Shown: piece after piece, positions 15,772 through 25,590 of the stretch
How positions within the stretch are numbered: the stretch's first letter is position 1
Layout: each line of letters begins with the position of its first letter
Assembly: GCF_003336205.1 (NCBI RefSeq)
Contig: NZ_QPIE01000001.1
Coordinates: forward strand, 310,001-374,000
From: Chryseobacterium lacus
GTDB taxonomy: Bacteria > Bacteroidota > Bacteroidia > Flavobacteriales > Weeksellaceae
DNA length: 64,000 nucleotides
Direction of reading: 5' to 3'
The notes under the pieces: model-generated
What the model was told of the DNA's origin: nothing
What the model saw: the letters and a program-made list of their open reading frames with translations, nothing else
Database searches by the model: none
Translations under genes and position numbers: made by a program

Positions 15772-15846
<75 letters not shown>

Positions 15847-15881: not shown

Positions 15882-16601
15882 TTAAAAAACTAAACTATCG
15901 AAATTTTTGAAGGCAAGTATTCTTTCGGTTGTAAAACCTTCAGCGTAAACACATCCTGACAATCTTCCCAAATCCTGGGCTCTATAGGTAAGGCTTTCCA
16001 GGAAATCTTTTGTAGCAATCGGGGTCATGGGTTCTTTGGAATCAGGATCATAAAACTGGGTTTTATATGCCAAACACGCTTCCAGTTTTTGATCCATGAA
16101 ATTGGAAATATCTACCACAAAATCGGGTTCGATATTTCTCCACTGGATATAATGGAAAATATGCTTTGGCCGCCATGCTTCCTGTTCCTGCCCGTCTAAT
16201 TCGGTTTCAATTTTTATCAATCCGGAAAGAAAACAAGCATCTGAAATCAATTTAGCTGCTTTTGCATGATCGGGATGCCGGTCTTCAATAGCATTCGCCA
16301 ATACCATTTCGGGACGGTATTTTCGGATTATTTTTACAATTTTCAATTGGGATTCCTCTGAATTAATCAGAAATCCATCTTTTAATCCCAAATTTTCACG
16401 AGCTGAAATTTTCAAAATTCGGGATGCTTCTTCCGCTTCTTGTTTTCGGGTTTCATCTGTTCCCCTTGTTCCCAATTCACCACGGGTTAAATCTAAAACA
16501 GCGACTTTTTTCCCTTCAGAAATCATTTTAGCAATGGTTCCCCCGCATCCCAATTCCACATCATCAGGATGAGCTCCTATAGCGAGAATATCAATTTTCA
16601 T
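15882..16601 (-). CDS. bshB1: Bacillithiol biosynthesis deacetylase BshB1
   Basis: Zn-dependent LmbE/PIG-L-family enzyme that removes the acetyl group from GlcNAc-malate in bacillithiol synthesis. The N-terminal motif GAHPDDVELGCGG carries the first metal ligands and the catalytic Asp; DRHPDHAKA carries the later ligand. The 239 residues match BshB1. bshA and bshC are not in the window. The terminator of the TPR gene lies just upstream. A TAAATTTG sequence at 16606-16613 is only five bases from the ATG, so if it is the -7 element the transcript would have almost no leader. Confidence 0.92.
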   Translation of the reverse strand: MKIDILAIGAHPDDVELGCGGTIAKMISEGKKVAVLDLTRGELGTRGTDETRKQEAEEASRILKISARENLGLKDGFLINSEESQLKIVKIIRKYRPEMVLANAIEDRHPDHAKAAKLISDACFLSGLIKIETELDGQEQEAWRPKHIFHYIQWRNIEPDFVVDISNFMDQKLEACLAYKTQFYDPDSKEPMTPIATKDFLESLTYRAQDLGRLSGCVYAEGFTTERILAFKNFDSLVF

Positions 16602-16668: not shown

Positions 16669-18348
16669 TTAGCTGTCTGAGTTCAGCTGTTTGTTCAGTT
16701 CAATTGCATCCTGATAATCCGGTTTCAGTTGTACTGCTTTCGCAGCATATTCCTTCGCTTTCGCAGGATTTTTTTCCAGGTTATAAAAGGCAACCGCATA
16801 ATATGCATAGGAAAGAGTTTCCTTTTGCTGCTCTTGTTCTTCAGGTTTTTGTGCAAGAACAGTATTTATAAATTTCTGGTATGAAGTTTCAGCCATCTCA
16901 GGATTGGAAAGTTGCTGATATGCAGATCCTTTCGCATAATAAGAATACGCCCAAGTGGGTGATATAGCAATCATTTTATCCCAAGTCAAGATGGCTGCGT
17001 CCCAGTTCTGTACTTCTTGATATGCTGCTCCTAATTTTACAATTGCATCTACATCATTCGGATTGGCCGCGATTTGCTTTTTCAAAGCTTCAATCGCAGG
17101 ACTAGTCGGTCCTGCATTCGCAGCTGCAACGTTGGCACCTCCGCCTTTAATTTTAATTATTTCTGCATCCCAATCTAATGTTTGATCTTTTGCATTTTTT
17201 GCAATGGTAATTTTCTGTTCAGCTTCTTGCATCATAGCAGATTTTTTCGCTTCATCTTTTTCATCTTTCGCCAAACCAGCGATAATCAATCCTTCCAAAC
17301 CTCTGTCTGCCGGGTAAATTCTCGCTTTATCAGTCACTGTTGTGATGAATGTATTAAGATCTGCCTGAGCTTGGGTGTAATTTTTATCGGCATAATCCAG
17401 ATATGCTCTCAGTTTGTACTTAATAGGATCCTGAACTACAGGAAAAACTTTGTTTAACGTAGCTCTGGCGTTTGCATAATTCTGATTTGTGAAATAAAGT
17501 TTTGCGATCTCCAGTTGAGTATCAGGATCTTCATCTGCGTATTTAGCATAGTTTTCCAAGGCTTTTGTAGCGTTCGCCGCTTGCTGGAATCTGATTTCAT
17601 AGTTCGCTAAAGCTTTGTACGCTGGAGCATACGTTGGATCTGCTGCGATGGCTTTTGTAATTTCCTGTCTGGCTTTTTGCCACTGCTGAGCCTGCATCCA
17701 TAATGTTCCCATTCTGGTATAAACAGATGCTTTATTAGCAGCAACAGGCAAAGCTTTATCGTAAGCCGTCATAGCATCACCCGCCACCTGAGGACTGTTC
17801 GTCAATTTCAACCGAAATGCATCTCCCAAAGTGTAGTAATAATGTGCAGGAACGCCTTTTCGGGATTTCTCTATGGCTTTATCAAGAAACTGTACTGCCA
17901 AATCAGCATCATTATTTTTTTCAAAAAGTGTCAAAGCTTGTCCTGCTCTGAAAAGAACTTCCGGATCTCTCTCTCTGGAATCTTTTACAATTTTCTGGAT
18001 TTCTGCAATGGCTGCAGCTTTATTTCCTTTTCCTAATTTTATAGTAGCCAAACCGATTTTATTCAGATAATCCTTGCTGTCGGCAGCCAATCCTTTTCTG
18101 AAATATTCTTCCGCTTTTGTAAAATCAGGTTCAGTTTGGGTGAGGTATGTATTTCCTAAATAAAAATAGTTTTCGGCGGAGGCAGATTTGCTGATCATTT
18201 CCTCAAAATTCTTTTTTGCTTGAGCATATTTATGACTGTCGATACTGGTAATTCCTTCCTGTAAAGACTGGGCAAAAGTAAAATTAGCAAAAAATCCGAC
18301 TGCAACTCCAAGTACTACTTTTTTAGATATGTTCATTACATTTTTCAT
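16669..18348 (-). CDS. Exported tetratricopeptide-repeat protein
   Basis: A 559-residue protein with an N-terminal signal (KKVVLGVAVGFFANFTFA, cleavage after FAQ likely), then many TPR units. Clear units include ENYFYLGNTYLTQTEPDF, APAYKALANYEIRFQQ, VDAIVKLGAAYQEVQNWDAA and WAYSYYAKGSAYQQL. A short linker near 400-415 divides two TPR blocks. It follows the PstS-like lipoprotein gene by 75 bases in the exbB-exbD-exbD-tonB direction and should be periplasmic. TPRs bind proteins, so a partner role in this cluster is inferred; no enzyme domain is seen. Confidence 0.85.
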   Translation of the reverse strand: MKNVMNISKKVVLGVAVGFFANFTFAQSLQEGITSIDSHKYAQAKKNFEEMISKSASAENYFYLGNTYLTQTEPDFTKAEEYFRKGLAADSKDYLNKIGLATIKLGKGNKAAAIAEIQKIVKDSRERDPEVLFRAGQALTLFEKNNDADLAVQFLDKAIEKSRKGVPAHYYYTLGDAFRLKLTNSPQVAGDAMTAYDKALPVAANKASVYTRMGTLWMQAQQWQKARQEITKAIAADPTYAPAYKALANYEIRFQQAANATKALENYAKYADEDPDTQLEIAKLYFTNQNYANARATLNKVFPVVQDPIKYKLRAYLDYADKNYTQAQADLNTFITTVTDKARIYPADRGLEGLIIAGLAKDEKDEAKKSAMMQEAEQKITIAKNAKDQTLDWDAEIIKIKGGGANVAAANAGPTSPAIEALKKQIAANPNDVDAIVKLGAAYQEVQNWDAAILTWDKMIAISPTWAYSYYAKGSAYQQLSNPEMAETSYQKFINTVLAQKPEEQEQQKETLSYAYYAVAFYNLEKNPAKAKEYAAKAVQLKPDYQDAIELNKQLNSDS

Positions 18349-18423
18349 TTTAAATCTTATATTTTTTCATTATTTGTCTAATAGTACACAATATTTATTC
18401 CAAATTTATATCGATGGGGATAA

Positions 18424-19287
18424 TTAATACATTTTAACCTCCCGTTGATAGAGATTATATTTCTGCAAACCTTCCTTCTGAACAATCATTTGTCCGATAT
18501 GAGTACAGGAAAATCTGATAAATCCGTTAGCCATATTAAAATTGGCTTCACTGGTAAGAAAATAAAGGGTTCTGGTAAACGGGTAAGACATATTGGCAAG
18601 ATTCAGAATTTCCGGCGATATTGATTTTCCCTTGACTGTTACAGGCAAGATTTTCACTTTATTTCTCAATTCTTCTGCTTCTTTGGAATAGGGCCTGCTG
18701 AAGCTATTCAGTGCGACCACGCCAATTTTACCTGGATATTTCTCCAGATTTTGGATAACATTCTCATTACCGCTTAAAATAGAAAACTTCAGATCTGATG
18801 GTTTTTTATTGATTTTCTGTGCCACGAAATTCAAATTACTAGAATTGGTACCGTCGAAAATCAGTTTTTTTTCTTCAGAATGTAACGCATCAATAATTTC
18901 ATCCATAGAAATACTCTGAAGTGGAGAATCCTTAGGAACTACAAAAACCACTGCATCTGCTGCAAACCTGTCTGGCCTGTATTCCAGATCCATCACTCTT
19001 TCGTATTCTTTTATTTCTTCTCCATTCAAATCTCTGGACATGACGATAATTTTCGCTTTTCTCTGCAAAAGATCCATAAAAGCATGGTCTTCTTTTTTAG
19101 TTTCAACGTTTATTTTCGTATCAGGATAGGTCATCATATATCCATCAGCAAGTGCCTGTGTTACACTTTCAAAAGACGCATCTGTTAGAATAGTAAGATT
19201 TCCTTTATGATACTCTTCAATAGGCAGACTTTTTTTGCACGATAATGCGGCCATCAAAATAAGAAAGCCAAAAACTTTAATTCTCAT
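18424..19287 (-). CDS. PstS-like solute-binding lipoprotein
   Basis: A 287-residue lipoprotein (signal ending in LMAALSC, Cys17) with a periplasmic-binding-protein fold of the PstS/PBP-like type: GNLTILTDASFESVTQALAD, ADAVVFVVPKDSPLQSISMD, FDGTNSSNLNF and KIGVVALNS correspond to blocks of phosphate-binding proteins. No pstCAB permease or ATPase genes are near. Instead it sits downstream of an ExbB-ExbD-ExbD-TonB set. Its start overlaps the end of the upstream small membrane-protein gene by 11 bases, so translation is probably coupled. A ligand (phosphate or another oxyanion) is suggested by the fold only. Confidence 0.82.
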   Translation of the reverse strand: MRIKVFGFLILMAALSCKKSLPIEEYHKGNLTILTDASFESVTQALADGYMMTYPDTKINVETKKEDHAFMDLLQRKAKIIVMSRDLNGEEIKEYERVMDLEYRPDRFAADAVVFVVPKDSPLQSISMDEIIDALHSEEKKLIFDGTNSSNLNFVAQKINKKPSDLKFSILSGNENVIQNLEKYPGKIGVVALNSFSRPYSKEAEELRNKVKILPVTVKGKSISPEILNLANMSYPFTRTLYFLTSEANFNMANGFIRFSCTHIGQMIVQKEGLQKYNLYQREVKMY

Positions 19288-19474
19288 TTCTGAATTGCTT
19301 TATTCTTTTTGCACCGCGAAAGATCCTGAACGATCCATAGAGAATCATCAGTGTTCCCAACATATAGGCAATGGTAGCTTCCAAAGGAACAAAGAACCAA
19401 AGTTTAAGAATGATAAAAAACCCAAGGAGAATATAAAAAAATCCTGCTAAGATCGAAAGCCAATTGAACATCAT
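19277..19474 (-). CDS. Small membrane protein of unknown function
   Basis: A 65-residue protein with two hydrophobic segments (about 4-27 and 33-50) and a basic tail (RIFRGAKRIKQFR), so both ends probably face the cytoplasm. It overlaps the next gene (PstS-like) by 11 bases and follows the tonB terminator region. I do not recognise the family. The overlap and position make it likely to be a real gene and part of the TonB-linked cluster. Confidence 0.65.
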   Translation of the reverse strand: MMFNWLSILAGFFYILLGFFIILKLWFFVPLEATIAYMLGTLMILYGSFRIFRGAKRIKQFRNEN

Positions 19475-19496
19475 ACGATTACAAAAATAAGAAAAA

Positions 19497-19528
19497 TTAA
19501 AAAAAAGAGAAGCGTTTGCTTCTCTTTG
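19497..19528 (-). terminator. Terminator of the exbB-exbD-exbD-tonB operon
   Basis: AGAGAAGC (19506-19513) pairs with GCTTCTCT (19518-19525) over a 4-base loop, followed by a long T-run on the minus strand. It separates tonB from the small membrane-protein gene, though readthrough is possible. Confidence 0.8.
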
Positions 19529-19552
19529 ATTTCATTACAACTAAAGTGCCAT

Positions 19553-20389
19553 TTATTCGAAATTCATCGTAATCGGGAATCTGAACCTTGCTCTAACGGT
19601 TTGTCCGTTTACCTTAGCAGGTGTCCATTTATTTCTGATGGACTTCACCGTACGGATCGCTTCGGCATTCATGTCTCTGTTTGGGCCATTGGCTTTAATA
19701 TCAGTAAGACTTCCATCGCGTTCTACTACGAACGTCACCTCAGTTTTTACTGACCCTTCACCTTCCATAACAGAGCCGTCAAAATTACTAACAAACCTGT
19801 TTCTAAATGAGTTGATACCTCCAGGAAAAGCAGCGCCTTGCTCTACATCATCATAAATTTTATTGACATCCACTTTTGGCGCTTCAATCGTTGCAGCCTT
19901 AGTTCCTGTAGAAGGCGGCGGCGGCGGAGGTGTGTAGGTAGGCGTTTTCACTCCTTCCTGAGCTACAACTCCGGTGGTAGTTTCCAACTGTTGAGAAATT
20001 GGTGGCGGCGGTGTTTCTACCACAGGTGCTTTTTTAGGTTCCGGAACTACATTCTGAATAATCTCAATTTGTTCCTCTTCTACCGGAGGTGGAGGTGGAG
20101 GTGGCGGAAGATCTTCTTCCGGCTGTTCAATAATGGTTTCTTCCGGCAAAATTTCAATCAGATTGGCCTCAACTTCCGTTTTTTCCTTGGCAGTCATTTG
20201 TTGGATCTGCATGATCACAAACGGTGTGATTGCAACTACACAAAACAAAACTGTACCCAGGATAAACGATCTTGTAAGAATTTTCCGGTAGGAACTTCTC
20301 AGATCATAAGCACCATAGCTCTTATTTCTGTTTTCGAATACAATTTCATCCAAGCTCAGATTTTCATTGTATGTATTTTCGTTTGCCAT
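19553..20389 (-). CDS. tonB: Energy transducer TonB
   Basis: A 278-residue inner-membrane protein that passes proton-motive energy from ExbBD to outer-membrane receptors. The N-terminus has the Bacteroidetes TonB feature ENRNKSYGAYDLR before the single membrane helix (about 34-56). A periplasmic Pro-rich spacer follows, with runs of eight and six prolines and KKAPVVETPPPP. The C-terminal TonB domain (about 185-278) ends in TVKSIRNKWTPAKVNGQ and FRFPITMNFE. It is the last gene of the operon (26 bases after the second exbD) and is followed by a terminator. The Pro runs are coded by GGAGGT-type repeats (20085-20107). Confidence 0.95.
   Translation of the reverse strand: MANENTYNENLSLDEIVFENRNKSYGAYDLRSSYRKILTRSFILGTVLFCVVAITPFVIMQIQQMTAKEKTEVEANLIEILPEETIIEQPEEDLPPPPPPPPVEEEQIEIIQNVVPEPKKAPVVETPPPPISQQLETTTGVVAQEGVKTPTYTPPPPPPSTGTKAATIEAPKVDVNKIYDDVEQGAAFPGGINSFRNRFVSNFDGSVMEGEGSVKTEVTFVVERDGSLTDIKANGPNRDMNAEAIRTVKSIRNKWTPAKVNGQTVRARFRFPITMNFE
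20085..20107. repeat. Short tandem repeat coding the TonB proline run
   Basis: Three GGAGGT units followed by GGCGGA on the plus strand, coding part of a run of eight prolines in TonB. Such repeats can change spacer length by slippage in multiples of three without breaking the frame. Confidence 0.6.
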
Positions 20390-20415
20390 TTTACTTTTAA
20401 ATTTTAACTGTCAAC

Positions 20416-20985
20416 TTACTGACCGGAGGTAGCAGCAGGTGCTGCCGCAACTCCTATTTTTCTATCATAGATTTCCTGTTCCCAAGGCCGGATTTCGGTA
20501 ATACCGTAACGCTCGTTCTTGGTGATGGCCATCTCATCCAACATATCAACAAAGTTCTTGTACAAAGCTTCATCTGTAGGTTTAATAATTACAGTGAATT
20601 TTTCCTTATCCTCTGCTCTGGCTTTCGCTTGCTGAACTACTGCTCTGATTCCTTCTCTATCGAAAGTGGTCTCGGTAAAGTTTTGGTCATTCAGAGAAGT
20701 TTGATCCTGCTGATGGTAAAAAACCCGGTTATCTTTTCCGATAATAATTGAAATTGAATTACTTAATTTAATTTCAGTATCGGGAGCTTTTTGATCATCT
20801 TTCGGTTTTGCAGGCAATCCCAGGTCCATCACATTTGGTTTGTTGAAAGTGGTAACCAACATAAAAAATGTAATCAAAAGAAAGGCCAAATCCACCATGG
20901 GAGTAAGGTCCACATGAGGAGGCTGCTTTTTGGAGCGAACCTTTTTACCTTTTCCACTATTATCATTAACTTGTATATCTGCCAT
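20416..20985 (-). CDS. exbD: ExbD-family protein (second copy)
   Basis: A 189-residue ExbD/TolR protein of the TonB-energising proton channel. After a basic cytoplasmic start (KGKKVRSKKQPPHVDLTPM) there is one membrane helix containing the essential Asp (VDLAFLLITFFMLV), then a periplasmic domain of about 135 residues. It ends in an Ala/Pro-rich tail. It lies 7 bases after the first exbD and 26 before tonB. It differs from that copy in the periplasmic part, so the two probably do not simply duplicate one another. Confidence 0.93.
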   Translation of the reverse strand: MADIQVNDNSGKGKKVRSKKQPPHVDLTPMVDLAFLLITFFMLVTTFNKPNVMDLGLPAKPKDDQKAPDTEIKLSNSISIIIGKDNRVFYHQQDQTSLNDQNFTETTFDREGIRAVVQQAKARAEDKEKFTVIIKPTDEALYKNFVDMLDEMAITKNERYGITEIRPWEQEIYDRKIGVAAAPAATSGQ

Positions 20986-20992
20986 TTTCTTA

Positions 20993-21598
20993 TTAGTTAG
21001 TAGGACCTACTTCCTGATTTGTAATTAACCAAAATTTAAGGAAATCAATATCTCTTAATCCTTCAAAAAGGCCTTTCACCCTGTTGTATTTGGTATCTGT
21101 ATCTCCTTTTATCGCCATTTTGTAATCGGGATTTACTGCCAAACTTTGCTCTACCCAGTCGATTAACTCTTTGCTGTTTTCATCCATAGGAACACCAGGA
21201 GCTTTAAAATTTTCCTGGTCCTCTTCTGAAAGATTTAAAAAGCCTTTCAGCTGATTCATCGGCACTCCTATCGCAGTCACTCTTGTGAATGCTGCTTTTT
21301 CCTCATCGGAGAAGGTGGTTCCGTATTTCTTTGCCATATTGTCTAAAAGCTGCATTCTTTCAGTTCCATTTTCTACGGGCGTGAAATAGAATCTTCCGTC
21401 TGTTGTGCTCAAGATCGTCATCAGACTTCCATCCGGAAGCAACTTTTCAGAAATTGAAGATGGCGTCGTAATATTCTCCACATCCGGTTTTGCAAACTGG
21501 GCGGTGAGGATAAAGAACGTGAGCAACAGGAAGGACACGTCGGTCATCGCTGTCATATCTACACGTATATTATGTCGTTTAGGTTTAACTCTCGCCAT
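20993..21598 (-). CDS. exbD: ExbD-family protein (first copy)
   Basis: A 201-residue ExbD/TolR protein. The N-terminal helix carries the proton-channel Asp (DMTAMTDVSFLLLTFFIL). The periplasmic domain is longer than in the second copy and contains an insert (about 85-145) rich in acidic residues before the C-terminal part (DYKMAIKGDTDTKYNRVKGLFEGL). It follows exbB by 69 bases. Pairs of unlike ExbD proteins are usual in Bacteroidetes TonB operons. Confidence 0.93.
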   Translation of the reverse strand: MARVKPKRHNIRVDMTAMTDVSFLLLTFFILTAQFAKPDVENITTPSSISEKLLPDGSLMTILSTTDGRFYFTPVENGTERMQLLDNMAKKYGTTFSDEEKAAFTRVTAIGVPMNQLKGFLNLSEEDQENFKAPGVPMDENSKELIDWVEQSLAVNPDYKMAIKGDTDTKYNRVKGLFEGLRDIDFLKFWLITNQEVGPTN

Positions 21599-21667
21599 TA
21601 TCTTAATATTATTATTTTAACTACTAATTTTTACGGGCTTTCATCCAAGATGAATGGCCCTCACCTA

Positions 21668-22528
21668 TTAATGGTGTTCTGCAAAGGATTGCTGAATAGA
21701 CATTGCAATCTCATCAATTTTGAAGGTCATGCTGTCGATCTTAGAGGTAAAATAATTATAAAAGATAATCGCAACTGCTGAAGTACCAATACCTAAAGCG
21801 GTATTAATTAATGCTTCAGAAATACCGATTGAAAGTGCTGCAGAGTCTGGAGTACCTCCGCCGGAACCCAAAGCGTTAAATGCTTTAATCATCCCAATTA
21901 CTGTACCTAAAAGTGCTACAAGCGTTGCTACGGTACCAAGAGTAGAGAGAATCATCATATTTTTCTCAAGCATTGGCATTTCCAAAGTGGTAGCCTCTTC
22001 AATCGCCTTGTTAAGGGCTGCCATTTTTTGTTCTTTATTCATGGTGGTATCATGAGCCAGAGCTTTGTAAGACACCAATCCTTCTTTAATTACATTTCCT
22101 ACTGTACCTCTTTGTCTGTCGCATTCTTCGATGGCTTCATCAATTTTGTTTTCATTAAGAAGTCTTCTGATTGACAAAACGAACTGATCCAAGTTTCCTT
22201 GTCCCTGAGCTCTGTTAAGCATAAGAGCACGCTCAATAGAGAAAACGATTACAATTATCATAAAGGTAATCAAGATCGGTACGATTGGGCCTCCCATATA
22301 AATAATACCCATAAATCCGTCCGGATGCAATTCTTTCGTCTCCACACCCGAGAATCCTACAGACATTCCGGTAAGTCTTGGGTCATCCTTAAAGTTGGAA
22401 GGATTTCCTAACACAAAGTAATAAATTAAATACCCAATAGCGAGAAGAATAGGCAATATTAATGTAGGATTTAACCCACCTGCTTTTCTTGCAACAACTT
22501 GTTCGTCGTTTGAAACATTCATTTCCAT
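21668..22528 (-). CDS. exbB: ExbB/TolQ/MotA-family proton channel protein
   Basis: A 286-residue protein with an N-terminal extension and extra membrane helix (about 23-40), then the three-helix MotA/TolQ/ExbB domain. Visible parts are the second helix (MGGPIVPILITFMIIVIVFSIERALML) and the conserved C-terminal pair LSTLGTVATLVALLGTVIGMIKAF and ALINTALGIGTSAVAIIFYNYF. It builds the pentameric channel around ExbD in the inner membrane. It is the first gene of the exbB-exbD-exbD-tonB operon. Confidence 0.94.
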   Translation of the reverse strand: MEMNVSNDEQVVARKAGGLNPTLILPILLAIGYLIYYFVLGNPSNFKDDPRLTGMSVGFSGVETKELHPDGFMGIIYMGGPIVPILITFMIIVIVFSIERALMLNRAQGQGNLDQFVLSIRRLLNENKIDEAIEECDRQRGTVGNVIKEGLVSYKALAHDTTMNKEQKMAALNKAIEEATTLEMPMLEKNMMILSTLGTVATLVALLGTVIGMIKAFNALGSGGGTPDSAALSIGISEALINTALGIGTSAVAIIFYNYFTSKIDSMTFKIDEIAMSIQQSFAEHH

Positions 22529-22770: not shown

Positions 22771-25590
22771 CTAAACGACAATATTAATGATTTTTTTCGG
22801 AACAATTATCACTTTCTTTGGCAAATTTCCAACCAACTGTTTAACGGTTTTTTCATCCTGCAACACCCTTTCTTCAATTTTCTTGACATCTAAATCCGCA
22901 GGAAGTGTTATTTTAAACTTCATTTTTCCGTTAAAACTTACAGGATATTCAAACTCATCCTCCAAAATGTATGCCTCAATAAAAGAAGGGAATTCCGCAA
23001 ACTCTATCGAAGTTTTGTGTCCCAATATCATCCAAAGCTCTTCACAAATATGTGGCGCATAAGGTGAAATGACTACAGCTAACGGTTCCAGAATTTTTCT
23101 TTTGTTACATTTCAGCTTCTGCAGTTCATTCACCGAAATCATAAATGATGAAACGGAAGTATTGAATGAAAAATTGTCCAGATCGTAAATAACTTTCTTG
23201 ATTAAAGTATGCAGAACCTTGTATTCCTGCTTTGTAGGTTCTTCCTCAGAAATGGAAACCACATCTCCATCATAATATAAATTATAAAACTTCTTCAGGA
23301 AACCGTAAACACCGGAAAGTCCTTGTGTATTCCAGGGTTTACTCTGTTCCAGCGGACCGAGAAACATTTCGTAAAGACGCAGACAATCGGCACCGTATTC
23401 ATCACAAATATCATCAGGATTTACGACATTGTATTTGGATTTAGACATTTTTTCTACTTCCCGTCCAACAATATATTTTCCGTCTTCCAGAATAAATTCC
23501 GCATCAGCAAACTCTGGCCTCCATTTTTTAAAAGCTTCCGTATCCAGTTCATCAGTTGCTCCTTTTAATAAGGAAACATCAACGTGGATTTTTTGAACAT
23601 CATATTCCTGAACGAGATTTTTGGAAACAAATTTATTCGTACCATTCATTCTATAAACAAACGCACTCATCCCCAAGATCATTCCCTGATTGATCAGTTT
23701 TTTAAAAGGCTCTTCCTGAGAAATAAAACCTCTGTCTTTCAAAAACATATTCCAAAAACGGGAATACAACAAATGTCCTGTAGCGTGCTCGCTTCCTCCA
23801 ATGTACAAATCAACCTGTCCCCAATAATCCGAAAGTTTTTTATCAGTAAAAACCTCATCATTATTCGGATCCATATATCTCAGGAAATACCATGAACTCC
23901 CGGCCCAACCAGGCATTGTAGATAATTCCAAAGGAAAAACATGTTCACTTTCCTTGTCCAAAGCAGAAGGTGCTGCAACAATTTTTTCATTTCGTTCATC
24001 CCAATACCATTCTTTGGCGTTTCCTAATGGCGGATCGCCGTCCTCGGTAGGAAGGTATTTTTCAACTTCCGGCAATTCTAAAGGCAAGGCTGAAACTGGC
24101 AATGTATATGGCATTCCGTCTTTATAATAGACCGGAACAGGTTCGCCCCAATACCGCTGTCTGGAGAAAATGGCATCGCGCTGGCGGTAATTGGTCGTTC
24201 CGTGACCAAGATCTCGGTCTTCAATTTCCGCAATAATTTTATTTTTAGCTTCTGTATAATTCAGTCCGTTCAGAAAATCAGAATTCACACAGACAGAATC
24301 TTTAGAATCGTAGGATTCTTCCTGGACATCCACCTCATTTTTGATTACATTCACGATTTCCAATCCGAATTTTTTCGCAAAACGATGATCGCGTTCATCA
24401 TGCGCGGGAACTGCCATCACTGCACCGGTTCCGTAACCCATCAAGACATAATCGGAAATATAAACCGGCATTTTTTTCTTTGTAAAAGGATTCAAAGCGT
24501 AACTTCCTGTGAAGGCTCCGGAAACGTTTTTCACATCAGACATTCTGTCGCGTTCGGTTTTTTTGGAGGTTTCTTCAATATAATTTTGCACTTCGATTTT
24601 CTGCTCCGCTGTCGTGAGCTTTTCTACCAAAGGATTTTCGGGAGCGAGAACCATGAAGGTAGCACCAAAAATAGTATCGGGACGCGTAGTAAAAACTTCT
24701 ATAATTTCTTCACTTTCTGTTGCAAACTTGACCGCTGCTCCCTGGGATTTACCGATCCAGTATTCCTGTGCGTCTTTCAGCGGTTGCGGCCAGTCAATAT
24801 GTTGTAATCCTTGAAGTAATCTTTCAGAATAAGCCGTAATTCTCATGCTCCACTGCATCATTTTCTTTTGGAATACCGGAAAACCGCCGCGTTCAGATTT
24901 GCCGTCTTTCACTTCATCATTAGCAAGAACGGTTCCTAAAGCCGGACACCAGTTCACAGTAGTTTCAGCACGAAATGCCATGCGATAATTCAGAAGAATA
25001 TCTTCTTTATCCATTTCCGAAGCGGCATTCCACTCTTCTGCAGTGAAACTGAGGTGTTCAGTTTGCTGTGCATTTAAATTTTCTGTTCCGTACGATTCAA
25101 AATGTCTGACCAGAGATGAAATGGGTTCCGCCTTATCAGTAGATTTATTGTACCACGAATGAAAAAGTTCGATAAAAATCCATTGGGTCCATTTATAATA
25201 CGATGGATCCGAAGTTCTCAATTCGCGACTCCAATCGAAAGAAAAACCGATTCTGCGAAGTTGTTCTTCATATCTTGTAATATTCTGCTCGGTAGTTACG
25301 GCAGGATGCTGTCCTGTCTGAATTGCATATTGCTCTGCAGGAAGCCCGAAAGAATCATAACCTATCGGATGAAGCACATTAAAACCGTGATATCTTTTAT
25401 ATCTAGCATAAATATCTGAAGCAATATAACCCAACGGATGGCCTACGTGAAGCCCTGCTCCGGATGGATAGGGGAACATATCCAAAACGTAAAATTTCGG
25501 TTTGGAAGTATCATTGGAAGCGTTATAGGTTTGATTTTCTTTCCAATACTGTTGCCATTTTTTTTCTATCTGCTGGTGATCGTAAAACAT
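22771..25590 (-). CDS. leuS: Leucine--tRNA ligase
   Basis: Class I synthetase charging tRNA-Leu, 939 residues. The HIGH-type motif is in FPYPSGAGLHVGHPLGY (about 40-55) and the KMSKS loop is EKMSKSKYN. The CP1 editing domain (TRPDTIFGATFMVLAPE, and MAVPAHDERDHRFA) is present, so misacylated tRNA can be corrected. The length is about 80 residues above the E. coli enzyme owing to an insert near 150-190, commonly seen in Bacteroidetes. It appears to stand alone. The 240 bases after its stop hold only a weak hairpin (22645-22672). Confidence 0.96.
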   Translation of the reverse strand: MFYDHQQIEKKWQQYWKENQTYNASNDTSKPKFYVLDMFPYPSGAGLHVGHPLGYIASDIYARYKRYHGFNVLHPIGYDSFGLPAEQYAIQTGQHPAVTTEQNITRYEEQLRRIGFSFDWSRELRTSDPSYYKWTQWIFIELFHSWYNKSTDKAEPISSLVRHFESYGTENLNAQQTEHLSFTAEEWNAASEMDKEDILLNYRMAFRAETTVNWCPALGTVLANDEVKDGKSERGGFPVFQKKMMQWSMRITAYSERLLQGLQHIDWPQPLKDAQEYWIGKSQGAAVKFATESEEIIEVFTTRPDTIFGATFMVLAPENPLVEKLTTAEQKIEVQNYIEETSKKTERDRMSDVKNVSGAFTGSYALNPFTKKKMPVYISDYVLMGYGTGAVMAVPAHDERDHRFAKKFGLEIVNVIKNEVDVQEESYDSKDSVCVNSDFLNGLNYTEAKNKIIAEIEDRDLGHGTTNYRQRDAIFSRQRYWGEPVPVYYKDGMPYTLPVSALPLELPEVEKYLPTEDGDPPLGNAKEWYWDERNEKIVAAPSALDKESEHVFPLELSTMPGWAGSSWYFLRYMDPNNDEVFTDKKLSDYWGQVDLYIGGSEHATGHLLYSRFWNMFLKDRGFISQEEPFKKLINQGMILGMSAFVYRMNGTNKFVSKNLVQEYDVQKIHVDVSLLKGATDELDTEAFKKWRPEFADAEFILEDGKYIVGREVEKMSKSKYNVVNPDDICDEYGADCLRLYEMFLGPLEQSKPWNTQGLSGVYGFLKKFYNLYYDGDVVSISEEEPTKQEYKVLHTLIKKVIYDLDNFSFNTSVSSFMISVNELQKLKCNKRKILEPLAVVISPYAPHICEELWMILGHKTSIEFAEFPSFIEAYILEDEFEYPVSFNGKMKFKITLPADLDVKKIEERVLQDEKTVKQLVGNLPKKVIIVPKKIINIVV

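Follow-up and report, generated by a model that had tools for sequence, protein, structure and literature searches.

A PstS-fold lipoprotein, a small membrane protein and a TPR protein as candidate accessory subunits of a TonB motor type in Bacteroidota

We analysed a stretch of 64,000 nucleotides (nt) of Chryseobacterium lacus DNA (NCBI RefSeq assembly GCF_003336205.1, contig NZ_QPIE01000001.1, positions 310,001 to 374,000; here referred to as the window), in which an exbB-exbD-exbD-tonB set is followed by genes for a two-helix membrane protein of 65 residues (TM65), a lipoprotein with the fold of the phosphate-binding protein PstS (PBP), and an exported TPR protein. The last three may be dedicated accessory subunits, and not importer components, of a housekeeping TonB motor type of Bacteroidota, the Riemerella TonB2 type; we give this reading about an even chance. 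Bacteroidota import glycans, iron and heme via very many TonB-dependent receptors, and little is known about what sets their TonB motors apart from the enterobacterial one. As uncharacterised proteins whose conservation and loss follow one motor type throughout the phylum, TM65, PBP and the TPR protein are strong candidates for missing motor parts.

Results

The TM65-PBP-TPR companion is an ancient neighbour of the TonB motor genes

The window contains all three components of a TonB-ExbB-ExbD system by Pfam, i.e. a stator protein of the MotA/TolQ/ExbB family, two proteins of the ExbD/TolR family, and TonB with its C-terminal domain. We conclude that the motor is of the ordinary TonB-ExbB-ExbD kind and that the variant lies in its conserved three-protein companion. 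By analogy with mutants of Riemerella anatipestifer TonB2 (PMC4446302), the motor would act in a proton-driven manner on outer-membrane receptors.

Conservation was followed in 60 genomes of the family Weeksellaceae, to which the genome analysed (2.38 Mb, 99.96% complete) belongs, and by profile search in 296 Bacteroidota genomes. A lipoprotein match was present in 54 of the 60 family genomes, one of which (G019) has a canonical PstS only, and a scan of named genomes with a narrow alignment (A1) gave matches almost exclusively in Chryseobacterium. Long family loci show hardly any deviation from the order leuS-exbB-exbD-exbD-tonB-TM65-PBP-TPR. The phylum search detected relatives in many other families, and TM65-PBP-TPR follows exbBDD-tonB in Weeksellaceae, in other Bacteroidia and in further Bacteroidota families. 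Thus, the recurrence in Flavobacteriia that had been supposed in a preliminary description of this DNA holds and extends far wider.

In 37 distant loci that were read closely (L161-L200 minus L193, L195 and L196), the TPR gene came directly after PBP in all 37, TM65 was recognised before PBP in 29, TonB was encoded upstream in 27, and the complete exbB-exbD-exbD-tonB run was present in 23. From these counts, the tightest unit is TM65-PBP-TPR, next comes tonB, and the stator genes come last. Moreover, TM65 is kept immediately 5' of PBP across the phylum, with the two genes overlapping or abutting in most genomes, and where exbBDD has been relocated, PBP-TM65 often still lies beside a tonB in both family and distant loci. 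A few loci (L171, L197; G009) have two tonB genes, one of which adjoins PBP. The tandem duplication in L171 and L197 sits between the stator genes and PBP. In one locus (L080, genome G115), the lipoprotein frame is broken by one TAG and one TAA within the match, possibly marking a decaying copy. In total, we conclude that the neighbourhood is ancient.

PBP and one ExbB subtype are present together and lost together

The ExbB of the window belongs to a distinct subtype, which scores ~350-430 bits with its own profile versus ~100 for other ExbB. With the strict cut-offs used for both phylum-wide profiles, PBP was detected in 125 of the 296 genomes and the ExbB subtype in 173, and all 125 fall within the 173. 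In the class to which the genome belongs, the two genome lists are identical (n=45, none discordant), and the 20 listed genomes of the order or class without PBP likewise have no ExbB of this subtype. Both proteins are present in 15 members of the genus g34 and neither in two of its species. Similarly, 50 of the 55 near-complete family genomes have both and 5 have neither; the two discordant family genomes, G005 and G007, are 79% and 83% complete. Where PBP is unlinked to exbBDD (L226-L232), the same motor type was found elsewhere in the genome. Genomes without PBP (L214-L225) carry another set consisting of ExbB, a protein of ~110-155 residues, an ExbD of ~200 residues, an ExbD of ~160 residues and a further protein of variable size. 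Because of shared descent, the co-occurrence counts are not independent, and the weight of this evidence rests on the repeated joint losses.

These losses bear on the explanation that the genes are ordinary neighbours in an ancestral order kept by descent, with PBP related to phosphate and unrelated to the motor. Vertical descent predicts some conserved order, the family has likewise retained leuS at its upstream position, and the two halves of the cluster look like separate transcription units there; however, several lineages have lost both proteins jointly and the class contains not one discordant genome, the partners remain beside tonB in loci from which exbBDD has moved, and the phosphate residues are replaced. 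This explanation is already disfavoured, and we regard it as very unlikely.

PBP has a PstS fold with a rebuilt phosphate site

PBP carries the lipobox ALSC, as read from sequence, and its model (pLDDT 93.9) has the PstS fold (Z 25.2, rmsd 2.2 over 228 residues against Clostridium perfringens PstS 4gd5). In E. coli PstS, phosphate is contacted by Ser38, Arg135 and a Ser-Gly-Thr (SGT) loop. In an alignment to PstS, the Ser38 position is Glu66 in PBP, the Arg135 position is Asp145, the first loop has a new Asp36, the SGT loop is changed to SSN or SST, and the glycine-rich loop of the phosphate site is also replaced. The cleft residues rank among the most conserved positions: among 60 diverse cluster proteins, D36 is kept in 58, D111 in 59, R85 in 53, E66 in 49 and D145 in 47. 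By contrast, canonical PstS proteins of sister genomes in the same alignment retain GSDTE or GSSTV, the glycine-rich loop (SGGGSG or SGTGGG) and the SGT loop, and those of family members also retain the Arg ahead of the SGT loop. In a tree, the cluster proteins are separated from the canonical PstS proteins, which group in a single clade (100/99); the tree is unrooted and a few cluster rows are long-branched.

As noted in the preliminary description, pstC, pstA and pstB are absent near the cluster, and in addition no PstC candidate was found genome-wide; the genome encodes one PiT-type transporter. PstC was above the cut-off in 10 of the 60 family genomes and not in the other 50, and the relatives with PstC carry a separate canonical PstS adjoining it. 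Seven distant second lipoprotein matches in the family (~25% identity) were considered as copies of PBP and rejected: all seven lie directly beside PstC and are, therefore, genuine PstS. A phosphate receptor serving an unlinked PstCAB importer was also considered for PBP and rejected, since the genome has no PstC and the phosphate-site residues are replaced.

PBP is, thus, probably not a phosphate receptor; its rebuilt cleft has the look of a binding protein taken over for work outside ABC transport. In databases, the protein is annotated as part of a phosphate transporter. The acidic cleft would bind a cationic group. The earlier suggestion that binding is decoupled from ABC transport is supported by the absence of PstC, the second canonical PstS in relatives with PstCAB, and the rebuilt site. 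Of the two outcomes named beforehand as speaking against that suggestion, an order confined to close relatives and phosphate binding for an unlinked PstCAB, neither was found, phosphate being judged from sequence.

A binding-protein fold with strongly conserved cleft residues also fits TonB-energised uptake of one ligand, in which a receptor would import the ligand to the periplasm, PBP would capture it, and an unlinked inner-membrane carrier or a TM65 oligomer would take it in. The overlap or abutment of TM65 with PBP in most genomes and the importance of Riemerella TonB2 for iron and hemin uptake (PMC4446302) agree with such a route. However, a receptor gene could not be recognised next to any of the clusters retrieved, in which unlabelled open reading frames are only partly annotated, TM65 is very small for a carrier, and one motor type conserved phylum-wide suits a general part better than a single nutrient. 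Moreover, BT2664-BT2668 of Bacteroides thetaiotaomicron are down, not up, in the published iron-starvation data (PMC10434189). In total, we consider a dedicated uptake route unlikely.

TonB, TM65 and the TPR protein have conserved or distinctive features

At E 1e-3, TonB_C matches a single protein of the genome, the TonB of the window. Its membrane helix is preceded by the cytoplasmic N-terminal motif (I/L)VFENRNKxYGAYxLR (VFENRNKxYGAYDLR in the window), which was detected in 42 of 51 relatives (L031-L050, L161-L200) and suggests that a cytoplasmic contact is kept. The C-terminal half of TM65 reads LGxLxxxYGxFRxxR. The TPR protein has a type I signal peptide (FAQ) by its sequence, and its model (pLDDT 93.8) is all helical, forming a superhelix of helix pairs. 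The protein has general TPR matches only in Pfam and in a fold search; the latter, made with the model, returned general TPR superhelices with poor TM-scores and was uninformative.

Motor and partner genes are probably two transcription units in Weeksellaceae

The 78 nt between tonB and TM65 hold a hairpin with a 10-bp stem and a T8 tail, and almost every member of the Weeksellaceae examined has it in this position. The exact hairpin core occurs once in the window versus 0 in 100 shuffles. In relatives, the core was confined to this gap: each of 85 loci has a single copy, and its distance from PBP is that of the tonB-TM65 gap. Among 29 distinct hairpin sequences, 98.1% of the stem cells are paired and 5 of 9 pairs are changed on both sides; 0 of 500 shuffles equalled this. 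Moreover, of 60 distinct Weeksellaceae gaps, 57 have a TAnnTTTG box 3-8 nt ahead of the TM65 start, versus a mean of 1.6 in shuffles. In Flavobacterium psychrophilum, TAnnTTTG has been mapped as the -7 box of sigma-A (PMC9723704).

From the conserved terminator hairpin and promoter box, the stator-tonB unit probably ends in this gap, and transcription of the partner genes would start anew there, giving them a very short leader. The stem-loop after tonB had been proposed to separate the two halves or to allow partial readthrough; it is real and probably separates them, with readthrough as a possibility. Loci of the Flavobacterium type have no such gap, as tonB and TM65 share one base there, an arrangement that would fit a single operon. 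Many relatives also have a sigma-A box ahead of exbB, of which an exact match was not found in the window.

In the PBP-TPR gap (18387-18404, minus strand), TTTGGAATAAATATTGTG lies ahead of the TPR gene. TTGG-N7-9-ATTGTGT was detected in 53 of 104 family PBP-TPR gaps versus 0 in shuffles, often as TTTTGGTCTGAAAATTGTG; it is possibly a promoter or a regulator site. A first pattern for a sigma-54-like site ahead of the TPR gene gave no match, and the claim of such a site for the TTTGG...ATTGTG element was dropped; a second exact copy in the window sits within a coding region.

Coordinates and flanks of the cluster

The seven open reading frames had been placed correctly to the base in the preliminary description, including their strand and the 11 nt shared by the TM65 and PBP frames (Table 1). 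The cluster is flanked by leuS upstream (22771-25590) and a deacetylase-like gene downstream (15882-16601). Further downstream, a tRNA gene (15772-15845, minus strand) was the sole match of an Rfam scan; PADLOC gave zero matches.

Table 1. Features of the exbB-exbD-exbD-tonB-TM65-PBP-TPR cluster (window coordinates)
Feature	Position	Strand	Basis
ExbB-type stator protein (286 aa)	21668-22528	minus	Pfam MotA_ExbB (PF01618), E 1.6e-28
ExbD copy 1 (201 aa)	20993-21598	minus	Pfam ExbD (PF02472), E 1.9e-14
ExbD copy 2 (189 aa)	20416-20985	minus	Pfam ExbD (PF02472), E 4.4e-20
TonB (278 aa)	19553-20389	minus	Pfam TonB_C (PF03544), E 1.1e-6, over cut-off
Terminator hairpin AAAGAGAAGC-AAAC-GCTTCTCTTT, then T8	19504-19527	minus	Hairpin and covariation
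TAnnTTTG -7 promoter box (TATTTTTG), 7 nt ahead of the TM65 start codon	19482-19489	minus	
TM65, two-helix membrane protein (65 aa)	19277-19474	minus	Weak Pfam YtpI/DUF308 matches only
PBP, PstS-fold lipoprotein (287 aa)	18424-19287	minus	Pfam PBP_like_2, E 3.5e-23
Exported TPR protein (559 aa)	16669-18348	minus	Pfam TPR_19, E 4.3e-19

Discussion

Proposed role of the companion proteins

If TM65, PBP and the TPR protein are accessory subunits of the motor, ExbB, ExbD and the second ExbD would harness the proton gradient to move TonB, which would pull on outer-membrane receptors, and PBP, TM65 and the TPR superhelix would act on the periplasmic portion of TonB by holding, gating or positioning it between the two membranes. 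PBP would have no ABC importer to feed, and its acidic cleft would bind a cationic group instead of phosphate, for which a metal or a basic stretch of a partner protein would be the simplest candidates. This reading draws on Riemerella TonB2, on the B. thetaiotaomicron run and on expression data for F. psychrophilum. No functional study of the TM65-PBP-TPR companion was found in the literature searched, most subscription journals lying outside its coverage.

The preliminary description had proposed that the lipoprotein and the TPR protein are periplasmic parts of a TonB-energised machine, for uptake or another envelope task. Their tie to the motor stands, as it is kept phylum-wide and the genes are lost together; the two proteins are putative physical parts of it, and uptake is a possible role. 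A related and rather unlikely possibility is that PBP and the TPR protein are what the motor acts on or through, i.e. a phylum-wide load or clutch and not a nutrient receptor, partly replacing Tol-Pal.

The exbB2-exbD21-exbD22-tonB2 set of R. anatipestifer alone failed in E. coli and the TonB1 set worked, a difference for which the authors gave no explanation (PMC4446302). Missing TM65, PBP and TPR proteins would explain this failure, and would account in a simple way for cases in which a Bacteroidota TonB set fails when moved alone to E. coli.

Several observations weigh against accessory subunits. A mismatch with E. coli receptors can equally explain the TonB2 failure, and co-occurrence with co-loss could mean a shared pathway instead of a complex. 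Moreover, the TPR gene is absent beside PBP in several family members (L017, L028, L033-L040, L042), and in Weeksellaceae the partners seem to own a promoter and are, therefore, not strictly co-transcribed with the motor.

Comparison with known systems

PBP shares its fold (Z 25) and family-level sequence similarity with the PstS proteins 4gd5, 4q8r and 4omb; it differs from them in that its phosphate-site residues are replaced and that it is a lipoprotein of a TonB cluster in a genome without PstCAB.

The cluster parallels Tol-Pal in the order of its parts, with stator proteins, transducer, lipoprotein and TPR protein. As a stand-in for TolQRA-TolB-Pal-CpoB, the motor would pull on PBP, as an outer-membrane lipoprotein, and on the TPR protein to hold or constrict the envelope; Bacteroidetes are reported to have no recognisable tol-pal loci (PMC12204202), and the cluster is usually a single ancient one and not present in many copies. 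However, Pfam detects neither a TolB propeller nor an OmpA-like Pal domain in the seven proteins, whose TPR member gave general TPR matches and none specific to CpoB, the whole set is lost in several lineages, mutants of Riemerella TonB2 are defective in iron and hemin use (PMC4446302), and PorE has been proposed for the tether role (PMC12204202). Such a stand-in is, thus, improbable.

The closest architectural parallel is found in clusters of the PVC group, which combine a TPR gene with a tolQ-like gene, two different tolR-like genes and a vWA force transducer (PMC12204202). As in the window, genes for a stator, for two ExbD/TolR proteins that differ from each other and for a force transducer have a TPR gene next to them; the transducer there is a vWA protein and not TonB, and no PstS-fold lipoprotein is mentioned in the accessible part of that report. 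In B. thetaiotaomicron, BT2664-BT2668 include a substrate-binding protein in a run with ExbD and ExbB (PMC10434189). This likeness, a substrate-binding-domain protein alongside ExbD and ExbB, is known from an annotation table alone. BT2665 is presumably the TonB homolog named TonB6 by Pollet et al. 2023. The genes of F. psychrophilum with high expression in all samples include those of a TonB-ExbBD system (PMC9723704).

R. anatipestifer TonB2 (exbB2-exbD21-exbD22-tonB2, also called TonBB) has leuS upstream and a PstS-like gene downstream, the latter carrying the annotation of a phosphate substrate-binding protein (PMC4446302, PMC8383284), so that its leuS-exbB-exbD-exbD-tonB-PstS-like order, as published, matches the window. 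We judge it to be the ortholog of the window motor by this gene order. TonB2 has the main role in iron uptake and a larger share in hemin uptake; in the available text, the PstS-like gene is noted merely as a flanking gene, and TM65 and the TPR protein are not discussed (PMC4446302). In total, the adjacency of PstS and TonB is already known in passing from Riemerella TonB2, and the split by a terminator and a promoter in Weeksellaceae is new.

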